Assembly (NCBI GenBank): GCA_015039365.1
Contig: WION01000179.1
Span: 1-64,000 of the forward strand
Source of the DNA: Amanita rubescens
Lineage: Eukaryota > Basidiomycota > Agaricomycetes > Agaricales > Amanitaceae
DNA length: 64,000 nucleotides
Reading direction: 5' to 3'
A program made the position numbers and the translations under genes. This document shows positions 15,483 through 50,392 of the stretch, in pieces (the stretch's first letter is position 1; every line of letters begins with the position of its first letter). The notes beneath the pieces are model-generated. The model worked only from the letters and a program-made list of their open reading frames with translations. It searched no databases and was not told where the DNA came from.

Positions 15483-15689
15483 CTACGCCTTTTCTCGCTT
15501 CATTAGAGCCTCGTAGCGTTCCGCAAACGAGAGGTTGCAACACGGGTTGTCAATGACGCCTGCCGCATGACATGCCAAGCGGTACCGTAGAATAACCGAG
15601 GAAGGTATGAAATTGTTGATTTGCCTTGATACCAGGGTGCACCTTCTGACGTCTTGGGCGTCTAAATACAGGAAAATTCGTTCAAGCAA
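15483..15689 (-). pseudogene. F-box domain fragment
   Basis: The peptide starts within an F-box (LERIFLYLDAQDVRRCTLVSRQ), followed by a typical VILRYRLACHAAG segment and a SFAERYEALMKRE motif seen after the F-box in basidiomycete F-box proteins. It stops there, with no C-terminal domain and no good upstream start, so it is a truncated copy. Confidence 0.6.
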
Positions 15690-16074: not shown

Positions 16075-19000
16075 TCAAAGTTGCAGTGGCCCGTAGCTCC
16101 CTGTGTAGCGAAACAATGAACATTGCACAGCGAGAAAATGACACACATACATATTCTTGCTTGCGAGTCCCCGAGGCTTCCCGTGGCGAGCAGTCCTCCC
16201 ATCGGACTCAGATCAATGGAAATGATCGAGTTTTTGTGGCCCAGAAGCTTACACTGCACCACTGCCGATCTAGCATCCCAGAACTGGACTCCGCCGTCTT
16301 TGGAACCTGAGACGACCCATTGTCCGTCGTGCGAAACGGCGGCGGAAAGGACACAATCCTGCAATCATCGGATCAGTTCACTTGGCCTAACGAAGAAAAC
16401 AAAAAGGTGAGACGTACCTTGTGGTTCAGCGTGCGCGGGCTACCCTTTTCACCGGGACCAGTTGCACTGCTGCCGCCTCCAGGGTCACCCTTTCTTTCGG
16501 CGTCGGATACGTTCAACCCACTTACATCCCAGAACTTCAACGTTTTGTCCAAGCTGCCACTAACGAGTCCTTTCCCGTCAGGGGTGAACGCGACACTGAA
16601 CACACTGTCTCTGTGCCCCTGCAACCGCTCAACGAGGACACACGTCGCCACGTCCCATATCCGGACGAAAGTGTCTCGACAGCCGGCAGCAACGAATTGA
16701 CCATTGGGGGAGATGGCGACAGAGGTAACTCCAGCGTCGCTGTTGAGCGAGTCGAGGTCATTAATGATTAGGACCTAATCGACGGTTACCCATACTGCAA
16801 AAGACTGTGGGAATAATCAACCTACTTTGGGTGGAGGCTCCAGATCGGCCATGTCCCATATTCTGACGGTCTTATCGACCGATCCGGATACGATCAGACG
16901 TCCATCGAGTGAAAAGTTCAATGAATAAATCTCCCGTTGGTGTCCGTCGAACACGTGGAGGACCTCTTCCTTTGCGATGTCCCAGATCTGCGTATTCCAA
17001 GTTGAGGATTTGTTCGTGGAACAGATTAACTATGCATACCCTGATTTGTCTGTCCTCTGCAGCAGTAGCAAGTAGCTTTCCATCTGGGCTGAAACATACA
17101 CTCCGGATATACAGGTCTCCGGACTTTCTTGCTGATTTGTGTGTCAGAACACTGCAAGATGATTCAGCTAAAATTGAATGTAAATCAGGGAGCATGTGGC
17201 TCACCAAGTCTTGGTGCCCGTTTTGGTATCATAGATCTGTGCAGTCTCGTTGCATCCAGTGGCAAGGTACTTGCCATCCAATGAGAACCTAACACAACAC
17301 ACAAGGCTGCAATACCATCAAACTTCTACTTGTTAGAAACCAATCAGAACACACACCTCTTGTGCATTAAGTTGTGCACCAATCTAACATCCAGTACTCT
17401 CTTGACCTTTGGATTGAAAATAACATACCAATCAGAACCCTGCCTCTTGAATTCAGGTGATATTGTATGGATATCAAAATGCTCAGGGAATGAATTGTCA
17501 TATTCTCCTTCTGGAACATTCACATCTGCTCCATTTTCTGGAAGAATCTTCACAACTTCACTAGGACCCATATGAGTTGCACCTTGTAATGCACTGCCAT
17601 ATTTTCCTTGTGGAATGTTCACATCTGCTCCATTTCTCAGAAGAATCTCCACAACTTCATCTGAATCCCTATAAGATGCAGCTTGTAATGCATTACCATA
17701 TTTTCCTCCCTGGGCATTCACATCTGCTCCATTTTCCAGAAGAATCTTCACAATTTCAGTATGACCCTGATAGGATGCAGCTTGTAATGCATTCCCAAAT
17801 TCTCCTCCCTGAGCATTCACATCTGCTCCTTCTTCCAGAAGAGTCTTCACAATTTCAGTAAAACCCATATGAGATGCAGCTTGTAATGCATTGCCTCCTG
17901 GAACATTCACATCTGCTCCATTTTCCAGAAGAATCTTCACAACTTCACTAGAACCTTTATAAGATGCAGCATGTAATGCACTGCCATATTCTCCTCCCTG
18001 AGCATTCACATCTGCTCCTTTTTCCAGAAGAATCTTCACAACTTCACTAGAACCCTCATATGATGCAGCTTGTAATGCATTGCCATATTCTCCTACCTTA
18101 GCATTCACATCTGCTCCTTTTTCCAGAAGAATCTTCACAACTTCACTAGAGCCCCTATAAGATGCAGCTTGTAATGCACTCCCATAGTCTCCTCCCTGAG
18201 CATTCACATCTGCTCCATTTTCCAGAAGAATCTTCACAACTTCACTAGAACCCCTATAAGATGCAGCTTGTAATGCACTCCCATATTCGCCTCCCTGAGC
18301 ATTCACATCTGCTCCATTTTCCAGAAGAATCTTCACAATGTCACTAAAACCCTCATAGGATGCAGCTTGTAATGGACTGTCATATTTTCCCTGAACATTT
18401 GCATCTGCCCCACTTTGCAGGAGAATCTTCAAGACCTCACTGGAACCCATGTATGAGGCAGCTTGTAATGGATTCCTATGTACTCCCTGAGCATTCACAT
18501 CTGCTCCATTTTCCAGAAGAATCTTCACAACTTCACCAGAATCATTATGGGATGCAGCTTGTAATGCATTGCCATATATGGCTCCTCCCTGAGCATTCAC
18601 ATCTGCTCCATTTGCCAGAAGAATCTTCACAACTTCACTAGAACCCCTGCAGGATGCAGCTTGCAATGCATTGCCATATATGACTCCCTGAGCATTCACA
18701 TCTGCTCCATTTTCCAGAAGAATTTTCACAACTTCACTAAAACCCTCATAGGATGCAGCTTGTAATGGATTGCCATATTCCCTTCCTTGACCATTCACAT
18801 CTGCTTCATTTTCCAGAAGAATCTTCACAATTTCACTAGAACCCTTCTTGGATGCAGCATGTAATGCATTCCCATAATTTCCTCCCCAGGCATTCACATC
18901 TGCTCCATGTTCCAGAAGAAGCTTCACAACTTCACCAGAAACATTATAGGATGCAGCTTGTAATGCATTGCCATATTCTCCTCCCTGAATGTTCACATCT

Positions 19001-21087
19001 GCTCCATATTCCAGAAGGATCTTGACAATGCCCCCATGACCTCCAAGTGATGCAGCTATTAATGGATTTCCATATATGCTTGTATATTGATTCATAGTAG
19101 CCACCCTGTCCAGGAGAAGCTTCATAATCCCAGTGGGACTCTTATCTGAGATTACTTGTAACCAATCATGACAATCCACAACATTTATGTCATTCAATGC
19201 TGTGTCTAACAGAAGCTTCAAAGTGCCAGTATTTCCTTCTTTTGCTGCAATTTGCACAGCCATGCTATATTCTTCCAGTGACTTGGTATTCTTTATCAAG
19301 GTTTCAATAACACTCTCCAGCCCAAACAATGCAGCAAAGTGGAGTCGTAACTTTATTTGATGCCACACATGAAGTTGTCTACCCCTCAAATTCATCATTA
19401 CCCATCTGTTGAATTCACTGTCTTCAATCTCAAAAAAAGTCATTACAGTGGCATGCAAAGTTGGATCCTCTTTGCTCAGTTTGTAATGATTTGGCCAATA
19501 TTCACATGCATAATGAAGAAGTGGAAAATCTGAATCTTTGCCACCATTATACCACTCATCTAGAAGGTATTTTACACAGCAATAACCAATCATGCAATGG
19601 GCTGTCATAGTTTCCAACAAGGCAATATCACCTTCTTGAAACATGCTTTGTCTGGCCAGGAAATATTCCTTCACAGATGAATGAGCTAGTCTCACTCTAT
19701 TATCTTCTGTTTTGGTCACTAGACTTGAGCACATGAATATCACATAATCATGATGGAGCAAAGCTAAGTCTGAATCAAATTTGCCACTTGATAGATCAAA
19801 TGTCACCACTTCAGCCAATTCTTCTGCTTTCAATGGTCTCATCCCAAAAACTAACCACTGTAGAAAGGTTTTCACATATGGCATATCTTCTGGACTAATC
19901 CTTTGAAGTATTTGATCATAAGTAGCTTCCAAGCTTTTTGGAAGATTTTCCAAAGCTTTCTTCAGCTTATTTAGGGTTGGACACAGCTTTAACTCTTGGA
20001 TTTGACAGACAACCCAGCGGAACCTACTCAGTCTGATTAGCCACTTTCCATTAAAAGGATAATCTATGCATACATTCCATTTGCACCACTTATGAGCACC
20101 TCCTTGACTTGCTCTTTAATTGTGTGACTCCACATCTTGAACTTGCTGTCTGCTTCAACAGCTGCATGAATATAGGATATAATATCACTTTCAATTAACT
20201 CTGCAGAAAGGCATATTTCCATTGCAGCACATCCCTGCATATTCACCAGTATATGCTGGTCACTCCTGCTGGTCATCAAGAGATGAACATTGGACAACTG
20301 CCATCCATGAATGATCATGATCACTTTTGTAAACAATTGTTCATATTCATCACATTCATCCAAAGCATCAATGACCACATAATTTTGCTTGAAGTGATGA
20401 AGAAGCTCCTTCAAAAGACCAAGTAGCTCATCCTGAGTGGGATTATACAGCCTGCCATGCTTTTCATAAAGCCTTTCCATGATGGAATATTTCTTGGATC
20501 TGGCTGTCAGAGCCAAAACCAGATATGAAAGAATATCCCTAGTAGTTTGTTTTGTCCTGTCACCAATGTCAAAATAGAAATAGACCAAAGCAGTTTCAGG
20601 CTGAGCCTGAACAATGTCCTTGATATCTTCAATTACAGTGGAACTGATCCTCCCTTAAGTGCTTAAAATAAGGTACTGCAATAATACACACCAAATAATT
20701 GTCTTTCCACAACCAGCTACATATCAATCATACACGTTCAGCTATTGTGACAATTATAGATTAGATAGGACACTCACAAATGCCATTGATCCATATCAGA
20801 GAATTAGGTTGTTGCTTCCAAGTCAAATACCTCTCATCCTTGAGTAGCCATTGGCCAGTGTTCTCATGGTGCTTATTCCTTGCATTATTGTGATTAATGG
20901 ATGGATCAGGTGGATCCAACCATTTTTGGAACTTTCCTGCAGGGGAGTCTTGGTCATGGTACACTGGAGAGATCCAAAGAAGGCTGCATACCAAGAATTT
21001 CATCAGTATCAACTGATGAATCACGGTTAACATGTTCACATGCACTATACAAACAACCACATACTGTATACATATTGATTCTAACAT
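16075..21087 (-). CDS. NACHT-ankyrin-Tup1(WD40) fusion protein, about 1512 aa
   Basis: Ten exons: 21087-20778, 20716-20692, 20643-20074, 20023-17357, 17306-17205, 17151-17040, 16987-16826, 16774-16418, 16358-16151, 16100-16075. All introns are 48-61 bp GT-AG and every junction keeps frame. Exons 1-4 encode a NACHT STAND ATPase: a [15 protein letters not shown] entry motif, a P-loop ISGCGKT built across intron 1, Walker [19 protein letters not shown] (sensor), then FRWVVCQ and [14 protein letters not shown] helical parts. About 16 ankyrin repeats of 34 aa follow ([20 protein letters not shown] type). Exon 4 then continues, without a stop, into the Tup1 linker ([18 protein letters not shown]) and exons 5-10 supply the complete Tup1 WD40 propeller ([24 protein letters not shown] to ARIWSYGPLQL). 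Tup1 is a general transcriptional corepressor; its N-terminal tetramerisation and Ssn6-binding region is absent. NACHT proteins are NLR-like sensors, so a decoy or chromatin-output role is inferred. The 5' end is uncertain. Confidence 0.85.
17357..19080 (-). repeat. Array of about 16 ankyrin repeats (102 bp units)
   Basis: Consecutive 102 bp units inside exon 4 of the fusion gene encode ankyrin repeats with strongly similar sequence; several neighbours differ by only a few bases. This suggests recent duplication or unequal exchange. Ankyrin repeats bind protein partners and would set recognition specificity. Confidence 0.85.
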
Positions 21088-21360
21088 GGGAAATTAAGTT
21101 TAGTATCGGGTGCAATGAGTGCAAGAGAAGACACACATAATCACGACCAATATTGATCATTAGGTTATCTTTTACCATGACATTCTGAGAGTTGGCAAGT
21201 GCATTGACAGAGTGATTGTATACATGTTGATTCTAACATGGGAAATTAAGTTGTATCAGGCGTGATGAGTACAAGAGTACAAGAGAAGACACACGTAATC
21301 ACGACCGACATTGATCATTACGCTATCTTTTACAATGACATTCTGAGAATTGGCAAGCAT
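21060..21360. repeat. Imperfect tandem duplication of about 150 bp
   Basis: TTGATTCTAACATGGGAAAT, AGAAGACACAC, TAATCACGACC, ATTGATCATTA and ATGACATTCTGAGA recur in the same order at 21075-21200 and 21229-21355. It covers the presumed 5' region of the fusion gene. Confidence 0.75.
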
Positions 21361-21423
21361 ACTTATTGTGTTGACGGAGTGATAGTCGTAGTAGAGGATT
21401 AAGATGTGCTGACACATTTGTGA

Positions 21424-21520
21424 AACCTGGCGGCCGCTTCAGGCTGCTTCACTCGGTGTCCAGAGCGCTCAGGAACACTCCAGAGTGATCCGGAGCGCCT
21501 GAAGTCCGCCACCCTGGGTT
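21424..21520. repeat. GC-rich inverted repeat, about 97 bp
   Basis: AACCTGGCGG..CCGCTTCAGG at the left pairs with CCTGAAGTCCGCC..CTGGGTT at the right, and the interior (CACTC/GAGTG, AGCGCT) also folds. It could be a short MITE or solitary terminal repeat. Confidence 0.6.
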
Positions 21521-23637
21521 TGCTGATGTGCCTGCGTCACACTCAATCAGACACTTTTCATACACTTACGGCGCCACCCGACGACAGACTACTTACCCGC
21601 TTCGCAAAGCGAAGCCATTGATGAGCGCTGAGTACCAAAGCCGTTGCGTATTATGATCTCTAAAGAAGATTTGAGATTCCCGTATGCCAGAGCGACGGGC
21701 ACAAGCGAAATCAAATGGTCGTCTGGTCAAAGCCTGTTTGAAAGCGTGCACGCCGCAGGACTACTATACGTTCACAAGGCAGCATTGACCCCAGGAACCA
21801 GATGCTCTCAGGCCCAGTCATACGTATTTGGATAACTTCTCCATTTGGCAACATGGGTCTTACCAGCCATTCCACTCTTTCTCGAGACTATGGACTCTCA
21901 GGCCAGTGACGCAACAACTTGTACGGACGGGCGCTCGCTTACGAATGTGCTCTTCATTGACCTGTACTTCCACAGACTACAAATTGTCCACCCCAACCAC
22001 CATCTTCTATTCGCGTCTTGGCCAGTTCATTGTAACCTAATCAATCATATAATCGAGCTACTGGCGATATGCGGAGGATAAGGCCGGAGAAATCATGGCG
22101 TCTCACCGAGCAAAGGATGGGGTATGCGAGCTGTTCCGAACAGGCTAGTATTACGACGCTGCACGCAAGGGTGGAAAACGACGGAGACGGACATGTACAG
22201 TAGGGACCAGCACTTACTACGAAGGTGCGTTCAACCCTTTCCGTATCAATACCTTGACTGACCCCCTTCCTCAGGCCTCCAAGAGTCAGGTCCTTCATGC
22301 GCCCATCCACCACCCAAATGCGACGTCAACTCCATATGGGTGCCATCCCCCACCCGATATCCGTACGTCACAATCCAACCTGAAAAAGAACAACGCGCTC
22401 AGGCCCCACGTCGTCGAACGCAATCCAGCTCAATCCCCACCAGCCTGCCGCCTACGCCGCTCCATCTGGTTTGGTCCCTGCTGCTGCAGACATGTCTCTC
22501 TGCTGTCCTACTTCCTCTCCTCCTCCTCGTTCCCCCACATAATTGCAGACCCTAGTTTTCCCTCACCCGACACGGCTCAGATCCGCTGTCGAGGTACAGG
22601 TCTGCGAAACAACGCTCTATTGCTTTCGGTTCGGAACGTCGCGTTTCATTTGCAGATATTGTTACCCGTGTTCTCCTTTGCTTCCGGCCTCGCCCTTCCG
22701 CAGATTCCGTCATACAGCTGGCACTTCCTCGGGCTGCGCCTCTCCATTCTGCTTATGCACTGCCTGTCCCTTCTCTTCCTGCCGTGTTCACAAGGAAATA
22801 GAAAAAGCAAACCCGGTCGAAGTCAACGTCAGCCGTAGTCAACGACAAATTGCTGGTCCTCTCACTCTTAGTCCAGAAGATATTCGCGTCAAGATACAGA
22901 GTAGTTAAGACGACGATGACGTTCTCCCTGCTCTAGCTAGTAAGTCGTTCACTCCGACTTCTCTTACAACTGATGATGTCTAATCCACTACCTCAGTGAT
23001 GCGCACCGGATCATGTACCTCTACCAACAACCCCTTCGACCCGGCTTATCGATCTTCTTCCATGGTCCAAATCGAGGAATAACAGGCCGACGACTACCTC
23101 CGTTTCCCGTCCCATCACTATGCCAGAACCCAATGACTACTGAGGCAGCACGCGTCTTCCCGCCGTCTTGTCGGAAGAGCTGCCCGATGCATCATACGAA
23201 GTGCAAATCTCGACGGTTAGTTCGTATCCTCCTCGCCCTTGTCTGTCCAATCTGACCACCGAGCGTGACAGTGACCATAAGCGCGTACTCATCATTACCC
23301 GCTATCCTTTATAATCCCACCGCGGTCAACGCCAAGGCCTCTGTACAAGAACCCAAAGGTGCACCCACGAATCCTTACTGTGTAACACCTTCTCGCTCAA
23401 CCTAATGATCTTCGTCAGTTTGGAGCACTGGAATACGGAAACACGGCACGATGCGAAGGGTATTGAAGGTTAAGTTGAGAGGTTCTTTTTGCTTGAATGC
23501 TATGCTTGGTGAATGTGTTGACGAGTAAAGACTTGTTCCTGCCTATGTCTTAGCACTGTATAGACTGCATAACAAGTACAATAACTTTTCGTGGAGTTGA
23601 AGCATGTCCCTATTTTGAAAAATCAACATAAATTACA
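21521..23637. other. Intergenic stretch with duplicated segments and coding-like remnants
   Basis: It holds the second copies of two segments also present at 14.87 kb and 15.77 kb. Proline- and serine-rich open frames around 22250-23250 change frame repeatedly and look like a decayed gene, but I cannot identify it. No gene is called. Confidence 0.45.
23145..23273. repeat. Inverted copy of the segment at 15767-15899
   Basis: Reverse complement of this stretch aligns with 15767-15899 over its length with small differences. Confidence 0.7.
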
Positions 23638-26475
23638 TTAATAATGATACTCGTCCAACAAGTTCCGCTGAAACTCGTATTCACTCCAATCAATCCCCTC
23701 TCCATTGCCCAAAGGCACATTCTCGCCCCCTTTCCCCTTCCTCCCCTTCTTGCCATTCACTCCTGGCCTACCCCCAATTCCACCTTCAAACTTGACACCG
23801 TGAACTTTCTGTGCAAGCCCCTTAACCTCTCCAAAATCCTGAGCCGCTTGCGCTTTCAGGAACGCCGCTGTGTTGGCTCGATGAACCATACAATCTGGTT
23901 CTTCGTACCCTTCCAACGAGCCCGCGTGCTCAATTCCGTGTTCTTCGCCCAAACTTCCTGCTGTCTTTTCCAACACACTCTCGATATTTAGAAATTCGCC
24001 AGGCGGAATAGGTGCCGGCTGACTGGGTGTCACACACTCCATATCCACTTCCTTCCCCAAATACTTGTCCACGTCCACTGCCGAAAAAAACGCGACGCCC
24101 TGCGGTAAGTCGTCCATACCGAGCATATACGCAAACATCCCCCTCGTCCACAGATTGGAGATTTGCAACGCGAGCGTGGCGCGGTACTCGTCTTCTTCTT
24201 TGACGAGGTACCGCAATTCGTCGTGCACCGGGATGAGGTATCGTGCTTGGATATGGTACCGTTTGATGAGATATTTCATCGATACGATCTACATGTGAAG
24301 GTAATCCACACCCGAGGATTGGACGACCCAGTTGATTCTCGAAGGCATATAATCTCATCCGAATTCGTTCGGGAGGTATTCCTTCCTCAATGCGTACGTC
24401 ACGCCGCATCCCAACGCAGGCGTCCTAGGCTTCTCTGAATTCGCAATATCTTCGAGCTTGAACACGAAGCTCTCGGATCCTCCGAACCAAAACTTTCGAT
24501 CAAACAACATGTCGGATCGGTGAGTGTTGCGGCCCTTTGTGGAAGCGTTTCTGGTATCGACATCCCGGCGTTGGCCTGAAGGAGGAGCAGAACAGCGTGT
24601 TTCATCCCAGCCCCATAAATCCTCGAATGGTTGAATACTTTGGCTTGGTCGCGGGACAAGCCAAGTATTTTTGCCGTTTTCGAATGCAAGTCCGTCCCAG
24701 TGCTTTTCGTCCCTTCGAGCGTCATCCACCCCAATCCCGTCGCACCGTGCATACCAAACTGCGCATCTCCCATACAACTCAAGATCCATAGCTCTTCCGA
24801 ATCCACATCGGCACCGATGATCGCGTAGCCAGGTGGTGCACGGACCATTGCTTTCAGTTCTGACCCGACGCGGTTCTTTTTCGCATTGGAAGCTGTCAAC
24901 CTTTTCAATCGCGCCGCAGGTGACGGTACCCATGGTAATGACTTGAGGGAGGATGATGCCCCACTTGTCGTCCTTATCCTTGAAACCCAACTTCCGGCCA
25001 CCGCCCTCCCAAACGACCATCTGGTTCATGATTCGATCTCTCGAGCTCATCCAATAACTGCGCACTGCGTTCAACTCGAGGGCCTCTTTCGCCTCTCCGC
25101 CCGGACTTGTCACGCCGCATACTCGACGAACGTTTTGCCAAGGGGAGACCCCACTTTGCCTTTTTCACCGTTTTTATGAGGCAACTTGTGGAACGCAGAA
25201 CCGTGGTGAAGTACTAGATCGACGAAAGTTGAATTGGCAGGGTTGGAGAACGTCAGAGACGATCCGTGCTTGGAAGTTTCCGAAACGGAAAGAGGGAACG
25301 CGGTATATCCAACCGTGTCCCGTGCTCTCTCGAATGAAACAAAGGGTAAGCCTCTCCACGCCAACTTGAACAAGAGCGGTGCGTTCGGTTTCGTGGGGTG
25401 AGATCGATCGTAAACCTTTTTTGGGTTTCGTCAAGTCCCAGTATCATTTCGGCCAACAAACGGCGGGCGCTTTCGGCTTCTCCTGGTCTTTCCGTTTTGT
25501 CTTTTTCTTTGGGCTCCAATCTAGTTGAGAGAACCACGGATCTTGAACGACGGCAGATTCGGGATCCTTCCTGGCCTCGTCCATCACGCGAGCTGCAAGT
25601 TCCTGTATTCGATCGTCCAGGTCTTTTGAACCAGACGATAACGCTATCGCTAGGTCGTTATCGTCAGACGTCATCTCGCCCGAGGCCAACAGTAGTTTTG
25701 CGTGACGCGGACCAAGGGTCTTCTGACCGCGAGCGGTACGCAGTTTCCTTTGTCGTCGACGTAATTTCAACCTTCTTCGCTCGATAATTTGAGTGGAAAG
25801 ACGTTATACGCAAGCTTGAGCAATAACGAGATGATACGGGAGGGTGAAGTAACGAGAGTGCTGAGCCACGCTGGATCTTCCGGTACTTGCAACACGTCAT
25901 GTTCAGGTTCAGGTTCAGGTTTAGGTTCATCAGGTTCCTGCACTTTAACGTGACTTGAGCGAAAAAGACACGACGAAAAAAGAACAATACTCACGACACC
26001 CCTCGATTTTCCCGCCTTTTTCAAGGTCCAATCCAACTGTGCCAACCACGGATTCTTCTCCCATTCCCTCGTCGTCGTCATCTCCTTCACGCTCGTCGCC
26101 AACTCCTCTTCACATCTTCCACCCCTCTAAAAACGCGCTCGACGTGTTCAATACACCTCTCCCAAGCGCTTTTGACTGTGAGAAAACTGGACCTGATGGT
26201 GAGCACGCCTGAGAAGGAGACGGGGCGAGGACACCGGGAGAGGAAGGAGGGGAGGATGCTTTGTGAGCTGTGTGGACGTCGGTGGCGCAGTAGGATAGAA
26301 GGTCGGCGAGTGATAGATGGTCCGAGTCGGTAGTAGGGGGAGTTGGGTCCGAGTCCTCGAGGTCAAGATTGGGATTCAGGTTGGGGTCCGGGTTGGAGTC
26401 GGCGCGATCGAAAGAAATGTTGTGGCCCACAACAAGTCGGTCTGTATCTGGACCAAAGGGGAAAACCCTGTACAA
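23638..26475 (-). pseudogene. Mitochondrial DNA polymerase gamma (MIP1) copy, decayed
   Basis: Pieces of the single-subunit mitochondrial replicase appear in order on the minus strand: an exonuclease-domain piece with LVVGHNISFDRA (near 26440) and LLSYCATDVHTAHK; a spacer with NPWLAQLDWTLKK and DPWFSQLDWSPKK; FKLPHKNGEKGKVGSPLGKT (25115-25180); [30 protein letters not shown] and [10 protein letters not shown] (24820-24960, polymerase motif A); [44 protein letters not shown]; and [17 protein letters not shown] (24180-24240, motif C). It switches frame several times, has an in-frame TAG near 24293, and lacks the N-terminus. Mitochondria cannot work without this enzyme, so an intact copy must exist elsewhere. 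Confidence 0.85.
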
Positions 26476-28784: not shown

Positions 28785-31700
28785 ATGTTCAAGAAAATCA
28801 CGAACAAAGTGAAGAACTTCTCGTTCCATCCGAGTCGTCGCGTTGAAGATCAATCTCGGTCCCACTCATCCCTCGATGTTTCCTCTCCATCCAAGGTGTC
28901 TCTCAACGATACTGCAAATCAGGCAGCCGATCGACCACGAAGCGAAGAATGCTCAACGTCCCACAGACCCTCCCAGCAATCGGCTCTTGTGAAGACTGGA
29001 AGCGTGGCATGGAAGGGACTAGAAACGGCGCTTAGGCTTTTGGAAAGGAGCGCCGGCGCATTTCCTCCTCTCAAGGCAGCCGTCAGCGGTTTAGTCGCCT
29101 GTCTAGATCTAACTCAGGTAAATTACTGTTTTGGCTTTGATTTACCCGTTGAAGCAGATCTCAGGCAGTCGTCGAGAATCGTGAAGAGTATGAAAACCTA
29201 GCAAATGAACTCAAAACCATGGCGGAAACGCTGGCTCCGTACGTATCCAAGCTTGTCGAAAGCGATGCCAAAGACCAGATGGCGCACATTGCCAAGTATG
29301 CAACAAATCCTAACCGCCCTTATTATTATTAATCGACCTTGCAGAATGATTAAGGATGAAGTGAAATCCATTGGATATAAACAAGATCGCGGCGTGGGCA
29401 TCCGGATAGTGGAGGCGAATGCGGATTCCGGGGATATTCTCCAACGTTATCGTCGTATCGAGTCGCTGTTTCGTCAACTACAAGTGGGTACCCAGTTGCC
29501 TATATTCTGCTCAGCAATCTGACATACAGTTAGATGTATATTAGTCTCAAGACTGCGGAAGATGCCCGAAATTCACATGAGGTAGGATGGTTTGACTAGG
29601 TCTTGATACACGCTCAAAGGTCCACCTGATAGAAAGCATTGCTCAATGAAATGACCCCCGTGCAATCAGCCAGATATAACTCAAACTATTCCACCGATAT
29701 TGGCAGACGCGGGTGTACAGCAGAGACACGCGAGAAGATCATCCAAGGTTTGAAGGACTGGGTCGGGAAGAAGGGAGGGGCAAAGGTGTATTGGATGAAC
29801 GGTATAGCGGGGACTGGCAAGACGACGATCGGGTACAGCCTGTGTGAATGGTTGACGAAAGTCGGGAAACTTGGTGGCAACTTCTTTTGCTCCCGCACTG
29901 AACCCTCCTGCCGTGATGTTAATAACATTGTCCCAACTCTCGCATTCCAACTCTCACAATACTACCCTGCGTATCGATCGGCCTTGTGCAAAGTCCTCAA
30001 AGAGGAGCCGCAGGCAAGCAAACTCGACGTGCGATGGCAGTTTCAGAAGCTCATTGAGGGCCCCATCCGAGCGGTCAAGGACTCGGCGGTGCTAGAAGAT
30101 ACCGTTATTGTGATTGATGCCTTGGACGAGTGTGACGACGGCCAGGCATTCCGGCTGTTTCTGGAGACGCTCCTGAAGCTCGCTCCATGACCTACCCCTC
30201 AAGATCTTCCTTACCAGTCGACCGGAACCTGGAATCCGACAAAAAATGTTGGAACCAGGATGTTCGAGATCTGTGCTTCATCTACACGATATCGAAGAGT
30301 CGGTCGTGGAAGCGGACATCAAGAAATTTCTCACCGACACGTTTCACACTATGTCCCCCCGCCCATCATCCTACCAAATTGAACAACTTGCAAATCGCGC
30401 TGGGAGGTTGTTCATTTACGCCGCGACCGCTGTGCGTTATATTCACCCGGACTCTCGCACCGTCGTCGATTCCGCCGCCCGTCTGAAAAGAGTGTTAAGT
30501 TTGACCACTGGGTCGGGAAAACAACATGAAGAACTGGATAAATTATACACGAGTGTCCTCTCCACAGCCTTCAACGATAATCTTGAAGAGGACGAAATGA
30601 ATAATATTTGCCTCACCCTCTGGACGGTGGTATGCGCGAGGGAACCCGTGCCGCTCAAGACAATTGCGTCGCTTCTGTCTCTAACGAAAGATACACTTCA
30701 AACTTCGCTGGAACCACTGCGGTCGGTTCTGTTCGTTCAAGAAGGTGTAGATGGACTAGTCGCCCCTTTCCATGCATCGTTTCCCGACTATATCCTTCAA
30801 CGCGATCGATCTAAACAGTTCCATTGCAATGCAGCTCAGCACCACGAACTACTTGTGAATGGTTGCTTCGATGTGATGAAAGCACAGCTGCGGTTCAATA
30901 TCTGCGACCTTGAGTCATCATATGTATTCGACGAGGATGTACCAAACCTAGAAGACCGAGTCAGGAAACACATCTCCCCCACCCTCTCATACGCGTGTCG
31001 GTACTGGGGTGAGCATCTCCAAAAGGGCAATTCCAGCGAGGCGGTCCACAAGAATCTCAACAATTTTTTGAGGAAACAGCTGTTATTTTGGATGGAGGTA
31101 CTGAACCTTGAGAAACGGATCTTGATGGGAGCAGATATACTGCGACAGGTGCAGAACGGGTTGAAGGTGAGGACCTGCCCCATCATCTCAACTCGGAAAC
31201 TGAGATATACCGGAAAGGATTCTCCGGGTAGTACAATGAAACAAATTGCTGATGCAGCGTCATTCGTGGCGCGATTTGCTGGTGGAGCATGCATGCGCAG
31301 TACACCCCACATCTACATCTCAGCAGTACCATTCTGTGCAAAATCGAGTTCGGTATATGACAACTACTGGGGATATATGCGAGGGCTTATGGAGGTGCAG
31401 GGTAGGGCAATGAAAGAATGGCAAAGTGCGGCAATTGTTGTGTGGGAGACAGATGTGACAGTCTTCTCAGTAGCATTCTCTCCGGATTGTACCCGCATTG
31501 TCTCTGGCTCACACTGTCACACAATCCAAGTATGGGACACACGCAGTGGAGACGTTGTTGCTGGTCCGTTTGAGGGACATACATATTCCGTCACGTCTGT
31601 CGCGTTCTCTCCGGATGGTACCCGCATTGTCTCTGGCTCACACGATCGCACAATCCGAGTATGGGACGCACGCAGTGGGGACATTGTTACTCGTCCGTTT

Positions 31701-33472
31701 GAAGGTCACACAGATTCTGTCACGTCGGTTGCGTTCTCTCCAGATGGCACCCGCATTGTCTCTGGCTCAGATGATCACACAATCCGAGTATGGGACGCAC
31801 AGAGTGGGAACATTGTTGCTGGTTCGTTTGAAGGTCACACAGATTCCATCACATCGGTCGCGTTCTCTCCGAATGGCACCCACATCATCTCTGGCTCACG
31901 CGATCAAACAATCCGAGTATGGGACGCACACAGTGGGGACATTTTTGCTGGTCCGTTTGAAGGTCACACAAATTCCGTCACATCGGTCGCATTCTCTCCG
32001 GATGGCACCTGCATCGTCTCTGGCTCAGATGATCACACAATCCGAGTATGGGACGCACAGAGTGGGAACATTGTTGCTGGTCCGTTTGAAGGTCACACAA
32101 AGTCCGTCATGTCGGTCGCGTTCTCTCCGGATGGTACCCGCATCGTCTCTGGCTCACTTGATCGCACAATCCGAGTATGGGACGCACGCAGTGGGGATAT
32201 TGTTGCTGGTCCATTTGAAGGTCACACAGATTACATCATGTCAGTCGCCTTCTCTCCGGATGGTACCCGCATTGTCTCTGGCTCAAGGGATTACACAATC
32301 CGAGTATGGGAAGCACGCAGTGGGGACGTTGTTGCTCCGTTTGAAGGTCACACAAAGTTCGTCATGTCAGTTGCGTTCTCTCCGGATGGTACCCGCATCG
32401 TCTCTGGCTCACTCGATCACACAATCCGAGTATGGGACGCACACAGTGGGGACATTGTTACTGGTCCGTTTGAAGGTCACACAGATTCTGTCACGTCGGT
32501 TGCGTTCTCTCCGGATGGCACCCGCATCGTCTCTGGCTCAGACGATCACACAATCCGACTATGGGACGCACACAGTGGGGACACTGTTACTGGTCCGTTT
32601 GAAGGGTCACACAGATTCTGTCACGGTCTGTTGCGTTCTCTCCGGATGGCACCCACATCGTCTCTGGCTCATACGATCTCACAATCCGAGTATGGGACGC
32701 ACGCAGTGGGGACGTTGTTGCTGGTCCGTTTGGAGGTCACACAGATTACATCAGGTCCGTCGCATTCTCTCCGGATGGCACCCGCATTGTCTCCGGCTCA
32801 GACGATCGCACAACCCGAGTATGGGACGCACGCAGTGGGGACGTTGTTGCTGGTCCGTTTGAAGGTCACACAAATTCCGTCAGGTCGGTCGCGTTCTCTC
32901 CGGATGGCACCCGCATTGTCTCTGGCTCATACGATCGCACAATTCGAGTATGGGACGCACGCAGTGGGAACATTGTTGCTGGTCCGTTTGAAGGTCACAC
33001 ATCTTACATCACGTCGGTCGCATTCTCTCCGGATGGCACTCGCATCGTGTCTGGCTCACACGATCACACAATCCAAGTATGGGACGCACGCAGTGGGGAC
33101 GTTGTAGCTGGTCCGTTTGAGGGTCATACATCTTACGTTACGTCGGTCGCGTTCTCTCCGGATGGCACCCGCATCGTCTCTGGCTCAAACGATCACACAA
33201 TCCGTGGATTGACCTATGCAAAATACAACGATCACATCTTCCCCCACACACCCCACCCTCTTTCACACTTGAAACATTTCGTATTTAAGCAGGATGGATG
33301 GATAACTGTAGACAATTACCCATTCTTTTGGATATCACCTCTTTTTCGTCCCTATCTACCATTTCCAAGTAATACATTTGTTATTAGTCCCCAAGGAAGC
33401 ATTTCAATTTCCTACCCTCCTCACCTTAATGTCGGCACAAAGTGGCCTTCCTCTTTTGCTCCACATGCCTGA
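28785..33472 (+). CDS. NACHT-WD40 STAND protein (NLR-like), frameshifted
   Basis: Exons 28785-29117, 29165-29295, 29345-29483, 29534-29581 and 29633-33472, with introns of 47-51 bp. The N-terminal ~200 residues form a helical bundle (LKAAVSGLVACLDLTQ, VVENREEYENLANELKTMAE) of the type fused to fungal STAND proteins, similar in layout to HeLo/MLKL-like domains. The NACHT domain has P-loop GIAGTGKTT and Walker [14 protein letters not shown], then FLTSRPEP and a winged-helix region with FHASFPDYIL. Fourteen WD40 repeats follow (VAFSPDGTRIVSGSDDHTIR type), then a conserved DGWIT....FFWI....GTKW tail that matches the usual end of this family. An extra base near 30187 (GCTCCATGACC) and two extra bases at about 32604-32630 break the frame. 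The family detects non-self and triggers cell death. Confidence 0.8.
31453..33210 (+). repeat. Fourteen near-identical 129 bp WD40 repeat units
   Basis: TTCTCTCCGGATGG recurs every 129 bp (one interval is 126) from about 31477 to 33154. Most units differ at only a handful of bases, and the changes concentrate at the same codons in each unit, the pattern of concerted evolution with diversified recognition positions known from fungal HET/NWD genes. Confidence 0.9.
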
Positions 33473-45046: not shown

Positions 45047-46784
45047 TGGCCACGTTGTCAAAACGGATTGGAGAGCTCCACCAAATAGAGCTACACGAGA
45101 TCGTAAAGGGAACTACGTTCTTGACGGATACTACGTTAGACTAAACGGTGCAAAACGAATCTGGGAAGATACAGGAGGGAATCCAGTTAAAGAACAAGAA
45201 TTCTGGATACCACAAAAAGAAACTAGACCTCCGAACGAGTCATACTATTACTTCGCAGATCTATATCTTCAGGAACAACACATCAGATTCGATCACCTCA
45301 CAAAACGTTGGATAGCATCCGAGACACAAGACTTTGTCCCTAACGAATACTTCAACACCCCTACTTGGATAAAAGGGACTGTTGATGCTCTACCGGAAAA
45401 CTTAAGACCGAAAACTCTCCTTTCCATACAGACAACTACAAAAGGCAAAAAGAAAGCAAATTTTGGCCTAAACGATAGTGAATCCGAGAAAGAAGAAGAA
45501 ACAGATCAAAAACCCGATCTATCTCTTGATTTTCTCAGTGACCTTTCAGTTGGAACGACACCAACACCTACCCAACAACCGACCAATCCCGAATCAGGTC
45601 CTTCGAACCCTAAAGAAGAAAAGGACGAAGAAGACCCGTTTGACTCTGACAGAATCGAAGTAGACGAACCTAAACCCGATCCAACTCCACCACGCAGAGA
45701 TCCATCACCCCCACCATCACCAAGAATGTCTGGAGGAAGTACAGACCCTATACCCAACCCACGAACCCCTAGTCTCATCGGAGATCTCCCTGAATTTAAA
45801 GGGAAGCGAAAGGATGCCAATACGTTCATAGAAGATATCGAAATCTTCTTTGACATGAATCCTGAACGGATGAATACAGACCGTTTAAAGATCCTTGCTG
45901 CCCTGAACAAGATCTCAGATGGAGCTAGACAGTGGAAAAAGAATAAATTAGCGGAATTACGAAAATCACGCGCTACCGTTGAAGGAGGCGTCACAAGACC
46001 CGCTTTATTCGATGACTGGGAAGCATTCAAACTATCATTCTTGACAGATTGGGGAGAAGTTGATCCAAGCGGAAATGCATACACGAAAATTCTCAATCTA
46101 CAGAACAGATCGTCCATAAAAGGAAAGAAACAGATGACCTTGCCTAATTACGTCAATCAGTTCAAGGAACAAATCACGAAAGCAGGAATCGAAGGAGAAG
46201 CAGCATTCCATATGTTCGGAAAAGGACTTACAGCACCCGAGTTCGAAAAAGCAATGCTCATGAACCCAAAAACATTGCAAGATTGGTACGACATTGCTAT
46301 CAAACTCGACAACATCCGAACCCGTTCATATGCTTATTCCCCCCGATCTGGAAATGGTCATTCATCATCCTCTCATAACGACGAATCATGGGCTATGCAG
46401 ATCGATCATAAATTTCTAGAACAAGAAGAAGACCCAGAACTAGAACTTATGATCAGATCTATGTCCAAAGAAGAAAGAGAACGCTACATCAAAGACGGTT
46501 TATGTTTTATCTGCGGAATCAAAGGACACATGTCAGGGCAATGCCCGAAGAAGAAAAGAAACAAAGGGAAAGGCCGATTTAAAGGAGGAAGGAAAAGAGG
46601 ATTCACGCCCAAACGTCACATTCGAGCCACATCAAATGATGGTGACGGAAATTGGGAAGAAGAAGAAGTCCAAGAGTCTAAACCAAATTACACCAAGAAC
46701 ATCCGAGCGCTGATGAAAGGGATGTCAACCGACGAAAAGAATGATCTATTACTATCTCTTGCCGATGATAACGAGGATTTTTGA
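45047..46784 (+). CDS. Gag polyprotein of the chromovirus
   Basis: From the first ATG at 45726 the ORF gives 352 aa: a capsid-like region (LPEFKGKRKDANTFIEDIEI, WKKNKLAELRKS) and a CCHC zinc knuckle CFICGIKGHMSGQC near residue 258 that binds RNA, followed by a basic tail. The same frame is open upstream to 45047 with protein-like composition (YYFADLYLQEQHIRFDHLTKRWIASET region, then an acidic Pro-rich stretch) but has no ATG, so translation may begin at a non-AUG codon or the N-terminal part may be lost. Stop TGA at 46782, preceded by a T5 run where a -1 shift would enter pol. Confidence 0.85.
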
Positions 46785-49045
46785 CAGTGGGACTCATGAC
46801 AGTGGATGAAGTCTCAGACACACCAGATTCAACTCTCGATATATCTCATGTAACAGTACAATCTATTTCGAAACGAAGATTATCTGTCCCTATCAAAGTT
46901 GAAACTGAAAACAACACTGAAAACCTCGTTGCCCTTGTCGACTGCGGAGCCGAAGGGATATTTATCGACAAAAGGATAGCACACAAATGGAGAAAACGAA
47001 AAACTCTACGACCAATTAGAGTTTATAACGTCGATGGCACCATAAACAAAGAAGGAGAAATTGATGAACAATGTCTAATCACCTTCGAAATGAACGGAAA
47101 ACGCATGACTGAATGGTTTTACGTATCAGCAATAGGAAAACAAACGGTTATACTGGGGCTTCCTTGGTTAGAGAAGCATAACCCTGACGTAAATTGGAGA
47201 GAAAAGACTCTAGAGTTCCGAGACTCTGAACAGGACAAAATCAAGGCATCACTTCGGAGCATCTGTCAACAGATTGACAGAATAGCTATGCCTGAATGGG
47301 AAGAAGATCTCGTCATCGGATATTTGATGTCACACAAAGGATCACAGACGACAGATCACAGATGGAACACGCATACATTTGAGGATATAGGAAGCTGGTC
47401 AGAAGACGAATATGACCAAGTAACTATCGCACGATATACGCCAGCTCAACAAATGGAACACAAATACCATCAAACAGAGGAGGTTTACACGCTCCCTCCT
47501 GAATACTCGGCATGGAAAGATGTATTCGAGAAAAAAGCAAGTGAACGATTCCCGGAAAGCCGATCTTGGGATCACCAGATAGAACTTCGCGATGATTTCA
47601 TACCAAAAAGAGGAAAAATCTATCCCTTATCTCCGAAACAGCAGAACACACTGGATGAATGGATCAAAGAACATGTTGAAAAAGGCTACATCAGACCATC
47701 GAAATCGCCGCAGGCATCACCTTTCTTCTTTGTAGAGAAGAAAGAAGCACAAAAACTACGACCCTGCCAAGACTATCGATATTTGAACGAATACACTAAA
47801 CCAAACGCATATCCATTACCCCTTATCTCCGATCTTATGATTAAACTCAAAGATTCGGAATACTTTACGAAATTGGACATCCGTTGGGGATATAATAACG
47901 TTCAAATCAAAGAATCTGACAGATGGAAAGCCGCCTTTATCACCAATCGAGGTTTATTTGAACCTAACGTCATGTTCTTTGGATTACGAAATTCACCAGC
48001 AACGTTCCAAGCTATGATGGACGATTATTTCAGGGATTTTACAGAAAAAGGATGGCTCGTCATCTACATGGATGACATGCTAATACACGCGCGCACTAAA
48101 GAAGAACTCGAGATTCGAACAAAACAAGTACTTGAACGATTACAGAAACACGATCTTTACCTCAAGCTTGAAAAGTGTAAATTCGCTGCCAAAGAAGTTG
48201 ATTTTCTAGGCACCGTCATATCCAAAAATACAATAAAAATGGACCCGATCAAACTTGCCGGAATCAGGGACTGGCCAACCCCTTCTACCGTTAAACAAGT
48301 TAGATCCTTTTTAGGATTCGGAAATTACTATCGAAGGTTTATTTTCGGATTCGCCCATCTTGCACGACCCCTGCACGACCTAACAAAGAAAAACAAATTA
48401 TGGACATGGACCGCAGAATGCCAAGTCGCATTTGATCTATTAAAAGAACGCTTCACATCCGCACCTGTCTTAATGATGCCCGACGTTAACAAACCTTTCA
48501 TTCTACAAACGGACGCATCAGACCGCGCTATCGGAGCAGTTCTTATGCAGAAAGATGACAATGGCGACTTACACCCATGCGGATACCTATCCCACGCTTT
48601 AACACCGACTGAAACACGATGGCAAATCTACGACCGAGAGTTATTCGCCATTTACTACGCTCTTTACAACGAATGGAGATACCTGCTTGAAGGAGCAGAA
48701 CACCCTGTCATTATTCATTGCGACCACAAGAACCTACTCTACTATCGAGAACCACAACGTCTTACAAACCGCCAAGCACGATGGTGGAACGACTTGTCTC
48801 GATTTAATATTAAATTAACGCATGTTCCTGGAGCAAAACTAATAATAGCGGATGCTTTATCCCGCCGACCCGATCATATGACAAAAGACGAACCAGAAGA
48901 GTTAATAACAATGCTCCCAAAAGAACTCTTCGTTCGCACGATCGCCGAAGATCTCCGTGACAGAGCAATAGAAATAACTGTCAAAGATGAATTCGCTCAA
49001 TCAATCAAGAAATGCCTAAAAGAAAAAGGAACACCGCCCTTATGA
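46781..49045 (+). CDS. Pol, part 1: protease, reverse transcriptase, RNase H
   Basis: In the -1 frame relative to gag, overlapping its end; first ATG at 46796. Protease-like VDCGAEGIFIDK near residue 52 (Cys in the usual D-S/T-G position). RT: PCQDYRYLNEYT, LDIRWGYNNVQI, FGLRNSPATFQAMMD and YMDDMLIHA; RNase H: LQTDASDRAIGAVL and DRELFAIYYAL, then HCDHKNLLYY and DALSRRPD. It ends at an in-frame TGA (49043-49045); the same frame continues as integrase, so this stop is a lesion or a read-through point. Confidence 0.92.
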   Translation: MTVGLMTVDEVSDTPDSTLDISHVTVQSISKRRLSVPIKVETENNTENLVALVDCGAEGIFIDKRIAHKWRKRKTLRPIRVYNVDGTINKEGEIDEQCLITFEMNGKRMTEWFYVSAIGKQTVILGLPWLEKHNPDVNWREKTLEFRDSEQDKIKASLRSICQQIDRIAMPEWEEDLVIGYLMSHKGSQTTDHRWNTHTFEDIGSWSEDEYDQVTIARYTPAQQMEHKYHQTEEVYTLPPEYSAWKDVFEKKASERFPESRSWDHQIELRDDFIPKRGKIYPLSPKQQNTLDEWIKEHVEKGYIRPSKSPQASPFFFVEKKEAQKLRPCQDYRYLNEYTKPNAYPLPLISDLMIKLKDSEYFTKLDIRWGYNNVQIKESDRWKAAFITNRGLFEPNVMFFGLRNSPATFQAMMDDYFRDFTEKGWLVIYMDDMLIHARTKEELEIRTKQVLERLQKHDLYLKLEKCKFAAKEVDFLGTVISKNTIKMDPIKLAGIRDWPTPSTVKQVRSFLGFGNYYRRFIFGFAHLARPLHDLTKKNKLWTWTAECQVAFDLLKERFTSAPVLMMPDVNKPFILQTDASDRAIGAVLMQKDDNGDLHPCGYLSHALTPTETRWQIYDRELFAIYYALYNEWRYLLEGAEHPVIIHCDHKNLLYYREPQRLTNRQARWWNDLSRFNIKLTHVPGAKLIIADALSRRPDHMTKDEPEELITMLPKELFVRTIAEDLRDRAIEITVKDEFAQSIKKCLKEKGTPPL

Positions 49046-50392
49046 ACAGCCCTTTCTGATTGGACCCTCGACAACGAATTAATCCTATACAAAGGGAAAT
49101 CTTTTATCCCTCCTGACACCGATCTTCGCCGAGATATTATCAGAGATTTTCATGAATCACCAACAAGCGGACACCCCGGTTTCTTCAAAACACTAGCCTT
49201 ATTAAAGGAATATTACTGGTGGCCATTAATGTCTAAAATGGTTAAACAGTTTATTGACGGATGCACGGCATGTCAACAAATGAAATCAAATACTCACCCT
49301 ACCGCCGCACCCCTGATGCCAATCAAGTCTCACGCACACCGACCCTTTCAACAAATAACCATGGATTTCATAACCGACTTACCCATAAGTGACGGTTTCG
49401 ATTCTATCTTTATCGTGGTCGATCAAGGACTTACAAAGGGAGTAATTCTCATGCCTTGTAATAAAACTATCACCGCCGACGAAACCGCCGACCTCTACAT
49501 TCGGAATGTATTTAAAAATTTCGGTTTACCCGACATCATGATCTCCGATCGAGGACCACAGTTCGCATCACATGTCTTCAACGGCATAATGGACTCATTA
49601 AAGATCAAACATAAAATGAGTACCGCCTTCCATCCACAAACTGATGGACAAACGGAGCGATATAACGCCGAATTAGAAGCTTATCTCCGAATATTCTGTG
49701 CCTATGAACCAGATACTTGGAACAAAATGATACCAATAGCACAATTCGCACATAATTCACGCACTCATGAAGCGTTGAAACAATCACCCTTTCAATTGAT
49801 GTATGGAACATCCCCGGTTGCACTCCCCCTTGTCTCAAATAAGACAAATACACCAACCGCCGATAACCGCATCAACTCTCTGTTCCGCGCACGAGAAGAA
49901 GCACTCGCCGCACATGATCTAGCACGAGCTAAGATGATGGAAAGAACAACGAGAAAGACTAAACCATTCAAAGTCAATGACAAAGTATGGTTAGAATCTA
50001 GGAACCTGAAGATTCCTTATCAGAGCAGAAAGCTCGCACCTAAACGAGAAGGTCCCTTTTCCATCAAAGAAGTCTTAGGACCAGTGACATATCGTCTCAC
50101 GCTACCAAGACAATGGAAAATTCATAACGTATTCCACGCCGCCTTACTAACGCCGTTCAAAGAAACTTCCTTTCACGGAATAACAGAAACAAGGCCCCCT
50201 CCCGATCTGATCGAAGGAGAAAAAGAATACGAAGTAGAAGCACTGCTTGCACATCGCAAGTTCAGAGGGAAATTACAATTCCTAGTAAAGTGGAAAGGCT
50301 ATGACACCAGCGAAAACACATGGGAACCAGAAAATAACTTGACGCATATGGAAGACCTCCTTCTAGAATATAAAAGACGAAGGAAACTCTGA
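49046..50392 (+). CDS. Pol, part 2: integrase with chromodomain
   Basis: Continues in the frame of pol part 1. Zinc-binding HHCC domain (HESPTSGHPG...CTACQQ, 49152-49282); catalytic D-D-E core with MDFITDLP, MISDRGPQF and TERYNAELEAYL; then the GPFSIKEVLGPVTYRL module and a C-terminal chromodomain (YEVEALLAHRKFRGK, FLVKWKGYDTSENTWEPENN) that targets integration to chromatin marks in chromoviruses. The first ATG after the stop is at 49229, inside the zinc-binding domain, so an independent start is unlikely. Confidence 0.92.
   Translation, partial: TALSDWTLDNELILYKGKSFIPPDTDLRRDIIRDFHESPTSGHPGFFKTLALLKEYYWWPLMSKMVKQFIDGCTACQQMKSNTHPTAAPLMPIKSHAHRPFQQITMDFITDLPISDGFDSIFIVVDQGLTKGVILMPCNKTITADETADLYIRNVFKNFGLPDIMISDRGPQFASHVFNGIMDSLKIKHKMSTAFHPQTDGQTERYNAELEAYLRIFCAYEPDTWNKMIPIAQFAHNSRTHEALKQSPFQLMYGTSPVALPLVSNKTNTPTADNRINSLFRAREEALAAHDLARAKMMERTTRKTKPFKVNDKVWLESRNLKIPYQSRKLAPKREGPFSIKEVLGPVTYRLTLPRQWKIHNVFHAALLTPFKETSFHGITETRPPPDLIEGEKEYEVEALLAHRKFRGKLQFLVKWKGYDTSENTWEPENNLTHMEDLLLEYKRRRKL

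Follow-up and report, generated by a model that had tools for sequence, protein, structure and literature searches.

A fungal NACHT-ankyrin gene in Amanita rubescens with a C-terminal propeller apparently captured from the corepressor gene TUP1

In one minus-strand gene of the mushroom Amanita rubescens, a NACHT ATPase is followed by 16 ankyrin repeats and the entire WD40 propeller of the corepressor Tup1, all in a single stop-free frame. It lies in the window, the 64,000 nucleotides that open contig WION01000179.1 of a genome of 75.7 Mb in 786 contigs. A reading of these letters alone (the sequence-only reading) had claimed such a joining within one gene, and the claim is confirmed by the rebuilt frame, the Pfam domains and the occurrence of the same junction on three contigs. 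Judged by its sequence, this gene (the window gene, or A) is a real fungal NOD-like receptor (NLR) of the NACHT-ankyrin type, the 3' end of which was captured from the fungus's own TUP1 or from a TUP1 copy.

The ten-exon model proposed earlier can be rebuilt exactly, with nine GT-AG introns and an open frame of 4539 nt encoding 1512 amino acids plus a stop. Its first exon (21087-20778) is wrong: it contains an intron (20991-20937), and conserved 5' exons lie further upstream. In the two closest relatives of the gene, B and C, described below, no frame corresponding to residues 1-45 of that model is conserved; aligning B to these residues requires three frameshifts and one stop, and aligning C requires one frameshift and an extra intron. 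The earlier 5' exon was rejected because these residues break in B and C while the other 5' exons are conserved. DNA alignment places conserved exons at 21360-21293 and 21044-20992 and the start of exon 3 at 20936, giving a corrected model of 12 exons and 4509 nt that encodes 1502 amino acids with a single, terminal stop.

Exon 1 (21293-21360, minus strand as are all exons of the gene; 68 nt) starts MLANSQNVIVKDSVMINVGRDYV..., and both versions of the second locus preserve its frame and GTGTCT donor. A tandem second copy of this exon sits inside intron 1 (21135-21178, minus strand), with a possible alternative start ATG at 21178. The splice sites of exon 2 (20992-21044) are present in A, B and C. 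Exon 3 (20778-20936) runs up to the first half of the P-loop, exon 4 (20692-20716) encodes the remainder of this motif, GISGCGKT, and exon 5 (20074-20643) holds the NACHT core, with the Walker motif at about 20378-20346. The long exon 6 (17357-20023) encodes the winged helix, a linker, the ankyrin array of 16 repeats and, starting at about 17490, the first Tup1 segment; as had been claimed, the ankyrin exon enters this segment in frame and without a stop. The intron that follows (17307-17356) is in phase 2, as in TUP1, and has an in-frame stop at 17344 inside it, so splicing is required for the fusion. The propeller continues through exons 7 (17205-17306), 8 (17040-17151), 9 (16826-16987), 10 (16418-16774) and 11 (16151-16358), and exon 12 (16075-16100) ends ...W SYGPLQL and the stop.

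The window protein contains a NOD ATPase with P-loop and Walker B. Pfam finds NPHP3_N at 126.5 bits and NACHT at 33.4 bits, both over the cut-off, together with the winged helix and seven WD40 stretches in the tail. Each of the 16 units of the ankyrin array ends in ADVN or ADAN; the 11 units of exactly 33 amino acids have a mean identity of 74% in amino acids and 85% in nucleotides. A criterion for internal-repeat conservation in fungal NLRs is 85% identity over at least 100 amino acids (PMC4986451, excerpt). The Pfam search, which did not extend to amyloid motifs, finds no family that could mark an N-terminal effector domain before residue 66 of the corrected N-terminus. With the 5' exons corrected, the N-terminus is short, as it is in the deposited A. 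rubescens proteins P0242 and P0247; a further one, P0241, has a longer N-terminus than these two.

Several lines of evidence identify the tail as Tup1. Yeast Tup1 (1ERJ) aligns to tail residues 2-347 of 351 in one stretch; third by E-value, it is the sole full-query match among the 60 best of 223 chains. The homology starts within the ankyrin exon, where the TUP1 counterpart is AFPEDLDIHTIPPEYKREGSDWY, and past the middle region of TUP1. The tail has 83% amino acid identity to the TUP1 of this genome. Moreover, the inner introns occupy the same places with the phases 2,2,0,0,0,1 in the NLR tails, in TUP1 and in three spliced kinase fusions, a pattern from which the Tup1 copies on C69 and C278 depart. 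The phylogenetic tree comprises 47 rows, from 32 chosen listed proteins (37 domains) and 10 tails of this genome, with X_C69, X_C278, P_C302_1, A_NLR_C417 and duplicate contigs omitted. In it the window tail falls in the Amanita part; it is excluded from a supported clade (100/91) of 28 rows that unites other species with this genome's own tup12-type copy. The A. rubescens kinase tails lie with the window tail in the Amanita part, where the branching order lacks resolution, and a branch of length 1.07, of unsure position, carries the tails of B and C. A generic WD40 tail was considered and rejected by the full-length 1ERJ match and the tree placement.

The junction between ankyrin repeats and Tup1 is found on C89, C417 and C740. 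C417 holds the window gene with 12 mismatches in one ungapped block of 5613 bases, the locus being 99.8% identical between C89 and C417, and C740 also holds the junction, its sequence ending inside the tail. Misassembly or chance is excluded in practice, because the junction recurs on C417 and C740 and a separate locus has an equal architecture. A single accident is likewise rejected, since a second NACHT-ankyrin locus also ends in a Tup1 propeller.

This second locus carries the closest NACHT relatives of the window gene, on C784 and C28 (B) and on C302 (C), with Tup1 exons directly downstream (C784:154500-162395, L069 and L073; C302:27500-35185, L070 and L072). At its end the ankyrin exon reads ...TSSLPSH or ...TSSLPSD; from there, across a GT-AG intron of 48 (B) or 44 (C) bases, the frame continues in phase 1 into a Tup1 exon at AFPWVFPHDIDIY or AVPWVFPQDIDIC. 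In TUP1 itself, an intron of 49 bases leads into this exon at AVVGAFPEDLDIH, likewise in phase 1. The first Tup1 exon of B and C is without an in-frame ATG, and the tails of A (C89, C417), B (C784) and C (C302) have zero stops and zero frameshifts.

Between the C28 and C784 versions there is one gap in 7529 bases. C784 and C302 agree closely elsewhere, with 98.5% identity in a tup12 region and 95.4% and 99.0% in a kinase region, in the same order and at similar spacing. In 300-base steps, identity between them is 81-96% across the gene (155.4 to 162.2 kb of C784) and 98.7-100% in the 900-base downstream flank. That B and C are two genes was rejected, as the neighbouring regions are near-identical and their order is kept; they are probably two versions of one locus, that is, haplotypes. 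A divergence of 4-19% per 300 bases in the gene against 95-100% identity elsewhere is the pattern expected of anciently diverged alleles, here within one genome. Of the changed positions, 193 in B and 181 in C, 168 are common to both.

A separate TUP1 gene, the presence of which the sequence-only reading had offered as a check, is found with its Tup_N exons on C784, C16, C587 and C232, and a second Tup_N gene is found on C784 and C302. None of the 17 genome matches to Tup_N, taken up to E 10, lies on C89, C417 or C740. A DNA search with the tail returns 33 matches in the genome, the window's own counted. Some of the Tup1 copies stand behind kinase reading frames, on C340, on C16 (at 119 kb) and on C784 (at 126 kb). 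Two A. rubescens kinase-Tup1 fusions are deposited, P0055 (on C1) and P0073 (on C784), and the junction of P0055 uses the same upstream phase-1 splice as TUP1's own intron. Beyond Amanita, kinase-Tup1 fusions occur in Marasmius (P0003, P0005 and P0009) and in Pisolithus orientalis (P0163). The Marasmius kinase tails group with a Tup1-type protein of Marasmius crinis-equi (100/94), and the Pisolithus orientalis kinase tail groups with Pisolithus TUP1 (100/88). With the Marasmius and Pisolithus kinase tails each grouping within their own genus and those of A. rubescens lying in the Amanita part, these fusions seem to have arisen separately, at least three times. The Marasmius kinase-Tup1 proteins have two propellers in tandem.

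A tandem pair of diverged Tup1-like propellers adjoins TUP1 at C16:111-114 kb (L064:1185-3825). Each of the two pairs with its own counterpart in a tandem protein of Amanita brunnescens, P0122 (100/100 for both), and alignment of the A. rubescens pair requires frameshifts. Further Tup1 copies lie on C69 (L059), C278 (L060), C343 and C637, those on C69 and C278 with one alignment frameshift. No partner domain was recognised by eye upstream of the C69 copy, where no domain search was made.

The NACHT cores and the tails of the NLR genes have different histories. Synonymous divergence (dS, Nei-Gojobori) in the NACHT core is 0.21 for A-B, 0.23 for A-C and 0.13 for B-C, whereas in the tail it is 2.5 for A-B and 2.6 for A-C (saturated), 0.22 for B-C and 0.31 for A-TUP1. 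Common inheritance of all three NLR tails is rejected by the saturated tail dS against a NACHT dS of 0.21. Because the tail dS is saturated, the NACHT dS is low and the tail of A stands at a dS of 0.31 from TUP1, the tails of A and of B and C were acquired or swapped separately. On this comparison B and C inherited one old tail jointly, and the tail of the window gene is younger and came, by replacement or by a separate fusion, from TUP1 or one of its copies. Third-position GC is 0.57 in A and 0.39 and 0.41 in B and C, a difference that is judged to inflate dS somewhat, but not from 0.2 to saturation.

Exon by exon (16075-17490), the dS of tail A to TUP1 is 0.48-0.87 in its exons 1-3 and 0.15-0.33 in its exons 4-6, a spread that suggests a mosaic from gene conversion. 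Upstream of the window gene, the stretch 21000-23400 has 66 further genome matches at 67-95%, besides the copies on C89, C740 and C417; with matches at so many other places, the gene adjoins a repeat.

The ratio of nonsynonymous to synonymous divergence (omega), taken from Nei-Gojobori pairs rather than branch models, is 0.28 for tail A-TUP1 (Fisher p 3e-12) and 0.50 for tail B-C (p 5e-4). It is 0.27-0.29 in the NACHT pairs (A-B 0.27, B-C 0.29) and 0.34-0.52 across the winged helix, linker and first ankyrins. By these estimates, the tail codons are under net constraint. In 5000 simulations, 135 random substitutions leave the TUP1 frame stop-free in 0.5% of cases and 68 leave the C frame stop-free in 5.6%; because of the latter figure, the open frame of B and C is by itself weak evidence.

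Where the tails have changed bears on what they may bind. In WD40 propellers, the d-a and b-c loops lie on the top face (PMC3419727, excerpt). The top face of Tup1 is conserved, matters for regulation and shows no difference between Tup11 and Tup12 (PMC2882346, excerpt), and the positively selected codons of HET-E fall in these d-a and b-c loops (PMC1805685, excerpt). Top, bottom and strand classes were assigned by hand from the repeat pattern, and 21 predicted hotspots were placed by the R1, R1-2, D-1 rule of PMC3419727 (excerpt). The ortholog baseline pools 10 of 26 compared rows; the hotspot table has 30 rows, including twelve chosen references, namely ten TUP1 orthologs, Marasmius crinis-equi and the Hypsizygus tup12 type.

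Top loops account for 31 of 259 changes in the ten TUP1 orthologs, for 18 of 43 in A, 56 of 139 in B and 56 of 126 in C, and for 20 of 51, 22 of 47 and 9 of 46 in the kinase fusions. Over a uniform spread (one-sided), the top face has an excess of changes in B (p 0.007), C (p 0.0005) and K_C16 (p 0.012), and no significant excess in K_C1 (p 0.11) or K_C784 (p 0.96). Five of the 21 predicted hotspots are changed in A, 20 in B and 17 in C, and none in any of the twelve reference Tup1 sequences. The genome's own tup12-type copy has one changed hotspot and the other Amanita copies run have 0-3; the Amanita kinase fusions have 8, 9 and 1, that of Pisolithus orientalis 0, and the Marasmius kinase domains (four of six run) 10, 1, 12 and 12. 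Seven Tup11-Fep1 contacts are confirmed by isothermal titration calorimetry (ITC; PMC3419727, excerpt), and A keeps 6 of them, C 1 and B 0. Hotspots change more than the rest of the tail in B (p 8e-6) and in C (p 0.002), and B and C differ from each other at 11 of 20 hotspots vs 53 of 264 other positions (p 0.001). Hotspot omega is 0.32 for A, 0.81 for B-C and 0.82, 1.04 and 0.06 for the kinase fusions. Positive selection is not established, as hotspot omega is not clearly above 1. Measured on these predicted positions, the conserved binding face of Tup1 is altered in the NLR tails, and its old binding role is likely lost in B and C.

The gene shares features with several known systems and differs from each of them. 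Like the fungal NACHT-ankyrin NLRs deposited for A. rubescens as 'ectomycorrhiza-induced ankyrin-domain/NACHT-domain-containing protein', it has a NACHT core, an ankyrin array and the short N-terminus of P0242 and P0247, with up to 54% identity over residues 50-600. Unlike them, it ends in a TUP1 propeller; among the best 120 of 553 matches, no A. rubescens row has a WD40 family in its Pfam column. Like HET-D, HET-E and HET-R of Podospora, it combines NACHT with a WD40 propeller, and the changes in the old tails of the second locus concentrate in the d-a and b-c loops. The WD40 repeats of those proteins are near-identical and undergo shuffling, whereas the window tail is one housekeeping propeller that keeps the intron positions of TUP1 and is placed behind an ankyrin array. 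TUP1, Tup11 and Tup12 share with the tail the propeller fold, the intron positions and 83% amino acid identity, but the NLR genes have no Tup_N and no middle region, and their conserved binding face is altered. The kinase-Tup1 fusions have the same propeller behind a signalling domain, which is a protein kinase instead of NACHT-ankyrin, and the Amanita fusion P0055 has the same phase-1 junction as B and C. As in plant NLRs with integrated domains and in Sordariales NLRs with a CHK2/PRD-4-like kinase (PMC12258605, excerpt), the C-terminal domain is copied from an identifiable host gene; unlike in those, it is the propeller of a transcriptional corepressor, in a basidiomycete, and was acquired separately at two loci. 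In Sordariales, 185 kinds of non-canonical domain occur in 8% of NLRs, and the CHK2-like kinase is proposed as a decoy (PMC12258605, excerpt).

No NLR with a Tup1 domain appears among the best literature matches examined on NLR integrated domains and decoys, on Tup1 with NACHT and on Tup1 fusions. Words starting with Tup are absent from the main text of Dyrka et al. 2014 (PMC4986451), and excerpts of PMC1805685 and PMC2873952 mention Tup1 as an example of a propeller or as a reference only. The search for the architecture elsewhere covered annotated proteins, and the fusion is absent among those listed, the best 120 each of 7879, 1857 and 553 matches. The sequence-only reading's idea that a housekeeping Tup1 domain has been fused to a fungal NLR is thereby supported more strongly than the letters of the window alone allowed.

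Elsewhere in the window, a further NLR-like gene at 30177-33107 (plus strand) has a NACHT-type stretch, recognised by eye, followed by a near-identical WD40 repeat array. A Walker-B-like motif lies near 30100, and the long frame stops at 33107, overlapped by a second frame from 32603. The frames of a Gypsy-type long terminal repeat (LTR) retrotransposon, with reverse transcriptase, RNase H, integrase and chromodomain, occupy 46772-50392 (plus strand). Two minus-strand reading frames may encode a mitochondrial DNA polymerase (23638-24409) and an F-box protein (15483-15689), which they resemble.

The best reading of the fusion, with a probability of about 0.5, is that the propeller may be reused as a recognition surface. 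The protein would be an intracellular receptor in which the ankyrin array and the captured propeller form the recognition part, and the NACHT ATPase would go from a closed to an oligomeric state upon binding. The propeller would offer a rigid platform for binding that is ready to use. Constraint on its fold would persist after capture, while the top face, which contacts repressors in TUP1, would be freed and change. The old tail of the second locus would exemplify this; the tail of the window gene, being younger, would still be largely TUP1-like. In this lineage of NLRs at least two captures would have taken place, for which recombination close to the TUP1 cluster might be the route.

Several results weigh against reuse as a recognition surface. 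The top-face excess of A is not significant (one-sided p 0.07), nor are its hotspots enriched for change (p 0.34), and with an omega of 0.23 in its top loops, purifying selection dominates there. Kinase fusion C784:125 keeps the TUP1 top face, with 20 of 21 hotspots retained and an omega of 0.06 at the hotspots, contrary to a general re-tooling. Because most of their changes are shared, B and C count as one history and are not independent. As hotspot omega is never clearly above 1, the data are explained equally well by release of constraint and by diversification. Finally, C740 is frameshifted in the NACHT-ankyrin linker and a one-base gap splits the ankyrin frame of C28; these breaks may be null alleles or assembly errors.

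An integrated decoy in the strict sense, as proposed by the sequence-only reading, is a rather doubtful alternative. Here the propeller would mimic a TUP1 attacked by a mycoparasite, bacterium or virus, and binding or modification of this bait would fire the NLR. The homology to a host domain stands, with a donor-type gene, TUP1, that is known and still present in the genome. The window tail retains 6 of the 7 ITC-confirmed Tup11 contacts and 16 of the 21 predicted hotspots, and its younger, separate acquisition fits a renewed bait; the proposal suits this gene best. The second locus does not go along with the proposal: its versions lost 20 and 17 of the 21 hotspots, and a faithful Tup1 mimic is unlikely there because only 0 and 1 of the 7 contacts are kept. 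An analogy might be drawn with plants, in which corepressors of the TOPLESS type, which are Tup1-like, are reportedly effector targets. In Sordariales NLRs, C-terminal kinase domains have themselves been proposed as integrated decoys (PMC12258605, excerpt). Against a decoy, the best literature matches examined, a small part of the total, name nothing that targets Tup1 in a mushroom, be it an effector, a parasite factor or a virus protein. Quite unlikely is an address tag or competitor, in which the propeller would bring the NLR or kinase to TUP1's DNA-binding repressors, and the oligomerising NACHT would replace Tup_N and alter transcription. The window tail keeps most contacts, kinase fusion C784:125 keeps 20 of 21 hotspots, and top-surface loops matter for Tup1-dependent regulation (PMC2882346, excerpt), but 17-20 of 21 hotspots are changed at the second locus and 8-9 of 21 in two of the three kinase fusions, and Tup_N is not found on the contigs of the NLR. 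Direct action on transcription, the other suggestion of the sequence-only reading, is poorly supported in the form of corepressor activity, given the lack of Tup_N on these contigs, a homology that starts after the middle region and the lost conservation of the binding face; a working corepressor is unlikely.

It is also possible, though unlikely, that recombination in a cluster of TUP1 and NLR genes joined them and that the tail is tolerated without a function. The many Tup1 copies and fragments in the genome (33 DNA matches with the window's own), the higher omega of tail B-C (0.50) than of NACHT core B-C (0.29), the frame breaks in C740 and C28 and the 5.6% of simulated C frames that survive 68 substitutions all fit such a chimeric by-product. 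They are set against intact tail frames in A (on two contigs), B and C, an omega significantly below 1, retained splice sites and the finding that tails were acquired separately at least twice within one NLR lineage. It is very improbable that the NLR ends at 17344 and is followed by a separate Tup1 fragment, or that the contig is misjoined. The in-frame stop would be read if the intron were retained, and the fusion is absent among the listed deposited proteins; nevertheless, the junction occurs on three contigs and at a second locus of like architecture, where in B and C nothing but a canonical intron (48 or 44 bases) stands between the ankyrin exon and a Tup1 exon that lacks an in-frame ATG.

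Taken together, the comparisons indicate that the window gene and its relatives are real NACHT-ankyrin-Tup1 genes, a small family of captures that forms a new variety of NLR with an integrated domain. Such domains in fungal NLRs are just beginning to be described, in ascomycetes (PMC12258605, 2025, excerpt). Because one genome contains the donor-type gene and the junctions as well as an older acquisition, a younger one and kinase sister fusions, capture and re-tooling can be traced and tested here. A more speculative and doubtful extension is that the innate immunity of mushrooms may draw on TUP1 again and again as a donor: NLRs and kinases would capture its propeller first as bait and then re-tool or replace it, with the second locus representing balanced old alleles and the window gene a renewed bait. 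If the propeller is indeed a bait, the Tup1 corepressor would be indicated as a target of attackers of fungi.

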